Assembly: GCF_001693255.1 (NCBI RefSeq)
Contig: NZ_CP016474.1
Span: forward strand, 1,196,661-1,260,660
Source of the DNA: Picosynechococcus sp. PCC 7003
Lineage (GTDB): Bacteria; Cyanobacteriota; Cyanobacteriia; Cyanobacteriales; MRBY01
Direction of reading: 5' to 3'
DNA: 64,000 nt
Of the stretch, positions 18,244 to 19,930 are shown in pieces (the first letter of the stretch is position 1; the number at the start of each line of letters is the position of its first letter). Under the pieces are notes generated by a model. That model had not been told where the DNA came from, did no database searches, and was given only the letters and a program-made list of their open reading frames with translations. A program made the translations under genes and the position numbers.

Positions 18244-18801
18244 CTAGAAACGGTCGGATTCTGGAACAGTAGTTGTTCCAGGCTGATTAAGGAAGAGATT
18301 TCCCGCCGCATCATTTTGATAAATACAGTTAATACTCGGTGATCCTTGTAGACTCCCGGTATAACCAAAGGTATTCATGCGCCGCTTACAGTCGTTGACT
18401 TGTTCTGAGGTGACGAGGTTTTGGCGTTCGAGAATCGCCCAGTTATTTTGCCGAATCACACAGCCTGGCTCCATCTGGGGTTGGGTGACAAAGACGTTGA
18501 AGGGATTTAAGGTCACAAAGATTTTCATGTCTGTCACGATGGCACTCGCACCAAATTGCTGACAAAGTTCAGCATCGGGGGCCTGGCGGTCAATTTCCAG
18601 GCGAGAATCAATACTTGTCGGGTTAAGATTGGTACTGGAGCTAAAGCCGATGCCCACCGTAACCCCTAGGACAAAAATTCCCCCAAACAATGCCAGAGTT
18701 GCATAGTTGAAGTTAAAGAGGGACTTTTTGGGTTCCCGTTCGGGATACCTCGGACGGTCGTAGGAAGGGCGATCGTAACGTGAACGAGTTTGACGTTTCA
18801 T
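18244..18801 (-). CDS. DUF3172 domain-containing protein
   Basis: A 185 aa protein with a basic, Arg/Tyr/Pro-rich N terminus (residues 1-25), one membrane helix (about 33-55: LALFGGIFVLGVTVGIGF), and a soluble domain with four Cys residues. The soluble part, with APDAELCQQFGASAIVTDMKIFVTLNPF written in two parts here, matches the DUF3172 family shared by cyanobacteria and plastids, as I recall it. Function unknown; likely a single-pass membrane protein with its domain outside the cytoplasm. Divergent from the HepT-like gene at 18915, with about 113 bases between them. Confidence 0.75.
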   Translation of the reverse strand: MKRQTRSRYDRPSYDRPRYPEREPKKSLFNFNYATLALFGGIFVLGVTVGIGFSSSTNLNPTSIDSRLEIDRQAPDAELCQQFGASAIVTDMKIFVTLNPFNVFVTQPQMEPGCVIRQNNWAILERQNLVTSEQVNDCKRRMNTFGYTGSLQGSPSINCIYQNDAAGNLFLNQPGTTTVPESDRF

Positions 18802-18914
18802 CAGCGGATATCTATGGGGACCAGCGGCTCCACCAAGTCGATACTTTGTTAAGTGATCATTCTATCCACTATAGCGATTTACTACTCCACCCGGAGCTTA
18901 TCTCGAGGTTTTCC

Positions 18915-19262
18915 ATGGCGGATCGGCACACACTAGTTTTATTGGACATTCTCATTTCGGCGCGGTTAGCGATTAATTACCTGGCAGATCTGAGTTGGAC
19001 GGAGTTCCTCGGCAATATTGTTGTGCAGGATGCGGTGATTCGGCGGCTCGAAATTATGGGTCTGGCGGCGCGGAATATTCCCAAGGTGATGCATCCGGAA
19101 CTCCCCCAAGTGCCTTGGTTTGAACTAGAGGCGATCGCCAAAACCATGAGTGAAGACTACGAAGCGGTTAATATCGCCTTTGTTTGGGATCTGGTGCGTA
19201 ATGATTTGCCGGTTTGGGCGGAGGCTTTGGAAGTGATTTTGCCGGAAAATCTCCATGTCTAG
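18915..19262 (+). CDS. Orphan HepT-like (DUF86) protein with degenerate active site
   Basis: A 115 aa helical protein matching HepT toxins along its length: LLDILISARLAINYLADLS, VQDAVIRRLEIMGLAA, then PQVPWFELEAI and VWDLVRNDLP. In active HepT proteins the loop after PW carries R-x4-H-x-Y. Here the aligned residues read A-x4-E-x-Y, so both the Arg and His are gone. No MNT nucleotidyltransferase antitoxin gene lies next to it. It is probably not an active HEPN nuclease. ATG 18915 has GAGG at 18905-18908; the longer frame from GTG 18780 overlaps the DUF3172 gene and lacks homology. The histidine phosphatase gene begins two bases after its stop. Confidence 0.8.
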   Translation: MADRHTLVLLDILISARLAINYLADLSWTEFLGNIVVQDAVIRRLEIMGLAARNIPKVMHPELPQVPWFELEAIAKTMSEDYEAVNIAFVWDLVRNDLPVWAEALEVILPENLHV

Positions 19263-19264
19263 GG

Positions 19265-19930
19265 ATGGTATTTAAATCTGTTACCCACGACACTTGGGGC
19301 CGACAGTTGTGGTTTGTGCGCCACGGAAATCGCTTGGATTTTGTGCAACCGGCTTGGTTTACGACGGCTCTCTATCCCTACGATCCGCCCCTTTGTCCCG
19401 CTGGCCACCGCCAGGCCCAGGAGTTAGGCGATCGCCTCGCCCAAGAAACGATCCACCACATTTTCACCTCCCCTTTCTTGCGCACGATCCAAACGGGTCA
19501 GTACTGCGCCCAACGTTTAAACCTCTCTCTGAAGCTAGAGCCGGGCCTGGGGGAATGGCATAATCCCGCCTGGATGACCCGCCCGCCGCTGACTCACCCC
19601 AAAGGATTCTTGCGTCAAAACTGCGTCAATATCGACTGGCACTACCAGGAAAAATATTTGCCCCGCTACCCCGAAAATCTTGCCCAGGTGAAGCGACGGA
19701 CGATTCTGACCCTCCAGCAGTTACTCAAATCCTATGCTGGCAACTTGCTTTTCATCGGCCACAAAGTTCCCCTAGGCATTTGTCTGAGTTACCTACTGGG
19801 GGACACCAAAACCATGAGCCCCGATGTGTGTGCTCTCAATCAACTGGTTAACATTGGCGATCGCTGGTTTTGGCAACGGCAAAATGAGACCCATTTTTTG
19901 ACAGACCCAGGCATTAAGGTCGCCCCCTAA
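19265..19930 (+). CDS. Histidine phosphatase family protein
   Basis: A 221 aa phosphoglycerate-mutase-like phosphatase. The catalytic RHG motif is in LWFVRHGNR (His20), and the second catalytic His is in FIGHKVPLG. SPFLRTIQTGQYCA and GLGEW are the usual middle elements. The family covers sugar phosphatases and SixA-like protein phosphatases, so the substrate is unknown. Two bases separate it from the HepT-like gene, so the two are almost certainly co-transcribed and perhaps translationally coupled. Confidence 0.85.
   Translation: MVFKSVTHDTWGRQLWFVRHGNRLDFVQPAWFTTALYPYDPPLCPAGHRQAQELGDRLAQETIHHIFTSPFLRTIQTGQYCAQRLNLSLKLEPGLGEWHNPAWMTRPPLTHPKGFLRQNCVNIDWHYQEKYLPRYPENLAQVKRRTILTLQQLLKSYAGNLLFIGHKVPLGICLSYLLGDTKTMSPDVCALNQLVNIGDRWFWQRQNETHFLTDPGIKVAP

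Follow-up and report, generated by a model that had tools for sequence, protein, structure and literature searches.

A HepT-like gene is preserved in all six genomes examined of the genus Picosynechococcus without the cutting residues of HepT toxins and without an antitoxin, and so probably has a new, non-toxic job. It lies in the window, the whole 64,000-nucleotide stretch of Picosynechococcus sp. PCC 7003 DNA analyzed here, and we consider it likely that its 115-aa product is a domesticated, catalytically dismantled HepT, that is, a non-cleaving HEPN homodimer with a binding or regulatory use. Sequence comparison shows the homology, the loss of residues, the fixation, the selection and the synteny behind this interpretation. 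The gene and its surroundings are as follows.

18244-18801, minus strand: DUF3172 gene, divergent, a neighbor fixed in all six genomes of the genus
18854-18881, plus strand: largely conserved intergenic block (TGATCA...TATAGCGATTTA in the window), taken from the six-genome alignment and promoter-like by position only
18905-18908, plus strand: GAGG ribosome-binding site, 6 nt 5' of the HepT-like ATG, kept in all six genomes
18915-19262, plus strand: HepT-like (PF01934) coding sequence, 115 aa, with R-x4-H-x-Y replaced by A-x4-E-x-Y
19265-19930, plus strand: histidine phosphatase (PF00300, E 8.1e-25) coding sequence, starting 2 nt downstream of the HepT-like TAG

The 115-aa protein scores 42.9 bits against the Pfam gathering cut-off of 23.5 for PF01934 (HepT-like; E 4.6e-11), and its orthologues in the other five genomes of the genus also exceed that cut-off. 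With the NCBIfam equivalog NF047751 HepT_toxin it reaches 15.7 bits, below the cut-off of 60. Neither the HepT-like protein nor the histidine phosphatase has a match in the PADLOC defence-system library, and a scan for consensus promoters found none upstream of the HepT-like gene, the block at 18854-18881 included. The sequence-only reading had described a HepT/DUF86 homologue that has a good ribosome-binding site and is almost fused to a histidine phosphatase gene. This description is correct, since the protein aligns without gaps over the active loop, with PW and VWDLVRNDLP in register, GAGG stands 6 nt before the ATG in all six genomes, and the ATG of the PF00300 gene follows at 19265, 2 nt past the TAG.

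The same reading had proposed a comparison with HepT structures, and the best fold matches of the predicted model are indeed HepT/HEPN toxin entries. Its input was the window protein together with two named orthologues and three viral-contig HepTs, and it is all-helical and HepT-like (mean pLDDT 89.3, pTM 0.83). In Foldseek, HepT/HEPN toxin entries occupy ranks 1-23; the E-values are weak, 0.016 at best (prob 1.00), with no match at E <= 0.001. The top structure in VIA-align is 6m6u_G of Shewanella oneidensis, with rmsd 2.7 over 106 residues and a Z of 12.1, which lies below the value of about 13 that helical bundles can reach by common arrangement; ranks 1-8 are all HEPN toxins. A search of the PDB by single sequence gave no match, whereas with the family profile HepT structures came up as weak matches. 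As the fold matches agree with the sequence, we regard the predicted HepT/HEPN fold of the protein as secure. Among the fold matches are deposited structures titled HEPN(R102A) and HEPN(H107A-Y109F), which, judging by their titles, look like mutants made in the laboratory at the positions of the catalytic motif.

The residues that distinguish the protein from other HepTs, together with the retained tyrosine, are encoded at the following positions.

19062-19064, plus strand: codon 50 (Leu), Glu in 59 of 60 other HepTs; presumably where the Ex3[KR] motif has its Glu
19074-19076, plus strand: codon 54 (Asn), Arg in 48 of 60 other HepTs
19137-19139, plus strand: codon 75 (GCC, Ala) on the catalytic Arg column; Ala in all six orthologues (GCC three times, GCA, GCG and GCT once each)
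19152-19154, plus strand: codon 80 (GAA, Glu) on the catalytic His column; Glu in all six orthologues (GAA and GAG three times each), His in 58 of 60 other HepTs
19158-19160, plus strand: codon 82 (Tyr), retained; the MntA AMPylation position in HepT toxins, Tyr in all six orthologues and in 58 of 60 others

The alignment behind these counts contains 66 proteins, namely the six orthologues and 60 other HepTs, with five duplicates (L033-L036, L054) omitted. Since all of the 60 were found by similarity to orphan or HepT queries, they do not sample the family at random; among them are one broken fragment (L096) and eight near-identical proteins of the g54 genus, and two proteins with an intact motif (L108, L110) were omitted. 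R-x4-H-x-Y is kept in 57 of the 60, the exceptions being L017, L052 and the fragment L096. In the alignment with intact relatives, which is gapless across the active loop and has PW at 67-68 in register, A75, E80 and Y82 fall on the Arg, His and Tyr columns. All six genomes have these three residues, which bears out the claim of the sequence-only reading that A-x4-E-x-Y stands in place of R-x4-H-x-Y. Column 76 is Lys or Arg in the six orthologues and Asn or Asp in 57 of the 60 other HepTs. A motif shifted by one residue, with K/R76 serving as the Arg, was considered and rejected: the stretch from W68 to Y82 is without gaps in the orphans and in most of the intact HepTs aligned, so there is no shift. 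That reading had named a catalytic motif elsewhere in the protein as an outcome that would overturn it, and none was found.

Two further losses, of Glu50 and of the usual Arg54, come in addition to what the earlier reading saw. Column 50 is Leu or Ile in all six orthologues as against Glu in 59 of the 60 other HepTs, and column 54 is Asn or Ser as against Arg in 48 of the 60. These columns look like the Ex3[KR] motif, which passages of PMC3710099 describe as the second motif conserved among HEPN domains; under this mapping, made from the description given there, L/I50 and N/S54 leave all six orthologues without the motif. The orthologues retain Q38, D39, A40, R43 and R44 of alpha-2, W68, Y82 and W91. 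Y82 corresponds to the tyrosine of the HepT motif, which passages of PMC7641770 give as the AMPylation site of MntA.

In HepT, the Arg and His are held responsible for metal-independent RNA cleavage (passages of PMC7641770 and PMC11586414). Their loss removes the cleavage residues, and we therefore propose a non-cutting HEPN dimer that would bind RNA, a nucleotide or a protein. As described in PMC11586414, the HEPN dimer interface is formed mainly by alpha-1, alpha-2 and the Y-loop, so that the protein would still dimerize although it has lost the cutting site. HEPN domains without catalytic residues have also been proposed to be binding or regulatory domains (PMC3710099, in passages on such domains). 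However, in a Legionella pneumophila HEPN toxin RNase activity survived mutation of R and H, and required an alpha-2 Gln/Glu metal site (passages of PMC11586414). Loss of R-x4-H is thus not proof of a dead enzyme, and the inactivity of the orphan protein is something that we infer.

That case lends some weight to the alternative that the protein is still an RNase, acting through other residues (K/R76, E80, D/E81 or an alpha-2 metal site) and tamed by low expression or its new context. The Lys or Arg at 76 and the Glu at 80 are conserved in all six genomes, the Legionella toxin is described as using alpha-2 residues and Mg rather than R and H, and alternative sites are allowed for in passages of PMC3710099. 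We nevertheless regard this alternative as unlikely. Four family-signature positions (50, 54, 75 and 80) have changed together, and no antitoxin is encoded nearby. If the Legionella alpha-2 Gln were to correspond to Q38, its Glu would fall on V41, which is Val in all six orthologues.

The sequence-only reading also drew attention to a HIP1 site lying where the catalytic Arg should be.

19131-19138, strand not applicable: HIP1 octamer GCGATCGC, read in the frame A73-I74-A75 and ending on the second base of codon 75 (19137-19139); incidental

The overlap of the octamer with the Ala codon is real, but a role for HIP1 did not hold up. Ala is present in all six orthologues and is therefore independent of HIP1, which occurs at the catalytic site in only three of them; the other three read Gln-Ile-Ala (QIA) and have no HIP1 there. 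HIP1 as cause or carrier of Ala75 was rejected on these grounds, and parsimony suggests that the Ala arose before the HIP1 at codon 75. The window contains 121 HIP1 sites, which by simple arithmetic gives a chance of about 1.9% that one overlaps any given codon, so the overlap is nothing special. A striking HIP1 overlap can thus be mere coincidence.

The HepT-like gene occupies the same chromosomal place in all six genomes of the genus, which make up the whole family as sampled. Picosynechococcus sp. PCC 7117 is one of its carriers, and another is a MAG under the name Limnothrix sp. RL_2_0. The orthologues are 99, 91, 70, 68 and 68% identical to the window copy, and the reading frame is open in all six. 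By the Nei-Gojobori method the dN/dS of the gene is 0.03-0.23 (14 of 15 pairs with defined dS, which is near saturation for the distant pairs), that of DUF3172 is lower, at 0.016-0.092 (12 of 15 pairs defined), and that of the phosphatase is 0.11-0.26 (seven of 15 pairs). The HepT-like gene is constrained, though less than DUF3172; the constraint is real, not extreme. Across the six orthologues Ala75 uses all four GCN codons and Glu80 both of its codons, which points to selection on the replacing residues themselves.

These data bear on the alternative that what is left here is a toxin gene in decay, which would account for the loss of both the catalytic residues and the antitoxin. The frame is open in all six genomes with dN/dS well under 1, synonymous change has accumulated at the very sites that lost catalysis, and the ribosome-binding site and intergenic block are conserved, which makes decay highly improbable. 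The claim that the gene is not decayed has thus stood up well to the checks proposed with it: the survey of the genus found the same substitutions (A75, E80) in six of six genomes, and the dN/dS values over 14 of 15 pairs indicate purifying selection. Relaxed selection with scattered disruptions in sister strains, which would have counted against the claim, did not appear.

No MNT gene (PF01909) was found near the HepT-like gene in any of the six genomes, the nearest match being at least 67 kb off or lacking from the contig, in agreement with the earlier statement that there is no MNT partner. By a motif pattern rather than a profile, MNT-like ORFs were recognized overlapping the start of all four near intact relatives inspected (L037, L038, L039, L041), and adjoining each of the 11 HepT paralogues that were retrieved from the six genomes, all of which have R-x4-H-x-Y intact. 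Six of these paralogues (L097-L102) are the further HepT genes of the window's genome, all motif-intact with an MNT-like neighbor; the others are at L103-L107. The numbers of HepT and MNT matches vary among the six genomes.

An MNT elsewhere in the genome was also considered as the cognate antitoxin. Among 17 MNTs fetched from the six genomes and judged unpaired by coordinates (no PF01934 neighbor, a few weak or partial MNT matches being omitted), no one type is common to all six, and this candidate was rejected. One group of unpaired MNTs (45-57% identity) occurs in five genomes (G000-G004) and was not seen in G005. Five of the 17 have another small ORF directly downstream.

The HepT-like protein could also be imagined as immunity-like, pairing with active HepT paralogues or soaking up MntA and so damping the cell's own type VII modules. 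Every genus genome has three to eight further PF01934 matches, fragments included, the alpha-2 residues and the Tyr are retained, and the HEPN motif is located at the base of the dimer cleft in the description of PMC11586414. Against this, the paralogues are only about 21-33% identical to the HepT-like protein over the aligned parts (34% for one 68-residue fragment), their set differs between genomes whereas the orphan gene is constant, and among the unpaired MNTs fetched the most widespread type reaches five of the six genomes. We therefore think such a function rather improbable.

As for origin, the maximum-likelihood tree of 65 proteins, which leaves out the fragment L096, nests the orphan clade inside canonical cyanobacterial HepTs, near L037-L041, with support of 100/100. 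The stem of the clade is very long, at 1.93 changes per site. The tree carries a program warning about the small number of columns, and support is only 81/74 for the fork joining the clade to L037, L039 and L040. In the order sample, 126 of 388 genomes have a match at E <= 1e-12, and the best five (L037-L041) of the 24 non-genus places read (L037-L060) have the motif intact. In the phylum sample of 386 genomes only three match at E <= 1e-22, all of them of the Picosynechococcus genus. No degenerate clade outside the genus was found among the best five non-genus order loci or the phylum matches at E <= 1e-22; a more distant degenerate relative may lie outside the matches read.

A second solo HepT was observed in eight genomes of the g54 genus (L042-L049). 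It is a near-identical 118-aa protein, for instance at 1495-1851 of L042, in which R-x4-H-x-Y is intact but the stretch ahead of the Arg is three residues shorter (IPF---IMMRN). The two loci inspected (L042, L049) have no MNT-like ORF, and the flanking genes are constant, upstream in eight of eight and downstream in the seven of seven with sequence. This is possibly another domesticated HepT. The protein at 1492-1830 of L052 (G105, another family), a relative of this solo group, shares the gap and has the His replaced by Gln (MRNRIFQEY); no MNT-like ORF was flagged at that locus.

The downstream gene matches PF00300 and carries the RHG/Arg/His residues of branch 1 of the histidine phosphatase superfamily. 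R19, H20, G21, R73, E97 and H166 are invariant in the six orthologues, and we take R19-H20-G21, R73 and H166 to be catalytic. The gene order glmS (minus), DUF3172 (minus), HepT-like (plus), phosphatase (plus) is the same in six of six genus genomes. The HepT-like and phosphatase genes are always on the same strand, 2-44 nt apart (the starts in L004-L006 being uncertain). Within the flank examined, a LOG-like gene lies downstream in only three of the six, and the pair has thus outlasted change on that side.

Of the 100 genomes in the relatives sample, 92 have a phosphatase homologue (E <= 1e-25; the six genus genomes included), mostly in single copy, and neither a HepT-like gene nor DUF3172 lies beside the phosphatase in any of the best 24 non-genus loci (flank about 1.5 kb, shorter for a few). 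Further, the phosphatase evolves faster, the window copy being 46-51% identical to those of the three distant genomes as compared with 68-70% for the HepT-like protein. This faster divergence and the occurrence elsewhere without the HepT-like gene weaken the case for a partnership. The phosphatase at 19265-19930 is in its own right a gene that is widespread in the order yet fast-evolving within the genus.

The check for conserved pairing therefore has a divided outcome, with adjacency in six of six genomes inside the genus and in none of the 24 loci outside it. The proposal of the sequence-only reading that the gene was domesticated for a non-toxic role together with the phosphatase divides likewise: domestication is supported by purifying selection, and a joint role is possible, unproven. 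On another reading, the HepT-like protein would be a dedicated subunit or switch of the phosphatase, perhaps with modification of Tyr82 as the signal. The close same-strand spacing in all six genomes (three starts uncertain) and the persistence of the pair next to a changing downstream side fit this idea, as does the operon of DUF86 genes with a HAD phosphoesterase listed, along with 1ylm, in the DUF86 row of PMC3710099, although the adjoining phosphatase here belongs to the histidine phosphatase superfamily, not to HAD. Given a phosphatase so common without a HepT-like neighbor and diverging faster than the HepT-like protein, we hold a dedicated subunit to be doubtful. There is also a related but improbable possibility, in which a toxin was rebuilt as a non-cutting phosphatase regulator and the dead HepT dimer, through its Tyr and alpha-2 face, binds an RNA or nucleotide signal and tunes the enzyme. 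If true, it would be a pseudo-toxin regulator arising from domestication of a type VII module.

Returning to the domesticated, non-cleaving HepT that we favor, we infer the following course. A genus ancestor would first have lost the MntA of a canonical cyanobacterial MntA-HepT pair, the HepT gene being kept between DUF3172 and the widespread histidine phosphatase gene. A burst of change would have removed the catalytic Arg and His, and with them RNase activity, together with the second conserved Glu and Arg. The helical fold, the alpha-2 residues (Q38, D39, A40, R43, R44), Tyr82 and Trp91 would have survived this burst, with purifying selection acting ever since. The resulting homodimer would hold an RNA, nucleotide or protein partner without cutting it. 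More tentatively, the gene and that of the phosphatase plausibly share a transcript, and the protein may act on the phosphatase.

The protein resembles type VII HepT toxins (S. oneidensis 5yep/6m6u; HEPN toxin 7ae2/7ae6/7ae8/7ae9) in fold, similar length and ancestry, and in its alpha-2 QDAVIRR region, W68, Tyr and W91. It differs from them in the replacement of Arg/His by Ala/Glu, the loss of E50 and R54, the missing MNT partner and the constant chromosomal position of the gene across the six genomes of the genus. According to passages of PMC3710099, the motif is conserved in most of the PF08780/DUF86 family (83%), and Rx4-6H is lacking in a subset of MtlR and typically in nucleotidyltransferase-fused HEPN domains (GlnD/GlnE, aminoglycoside nucleotidyltransferases), where it is ascribed to domestication of former toxin-antitoxin systems. 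As far as those passages go, the orphan protein shares with such domains the HEPN fold, the lost motif, a presumed binding or regulatory use and an origin from domesticated toxin-antitoxin parts; unlike the nucleotidyltransferase-fused ones, it consists of a single free domain, derives from a canonical cyanobacterial HepT and is joined to no nucleotidyltransferase. Bacillus subtilis YutE (PDB 1ylm) is also similar in structure (VIA-align Z 8.4 to 1ylm_A), and Synechocystis slr7032, given as a stand-alone DUF86 gene in passages of PMC4963859, is like the orphan in lacking an MNT partner.

We found no paper on the orphan HepT-like lineage in the open literature searched. Dead or solo HEPN proteins are already known; what is new is the joint loss of four signature positions, without an antitoxin and at one locus, in six of six genomes. 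Toxin-antitoxin genes are usually patchy and mobile. A toxin turned into a fixed, probably non-toxic gene would be an example of how such genes get domesticated. Both ends of the path are visible, with intact MntA-HepT relatives in the order and the frozen, dismantled form in all six genus genomes, which makes the change testable in the Picosynechococcus genus, where laboratory strains exist. Finally, an annotation as HepT or DUF86 can mislead about activity.
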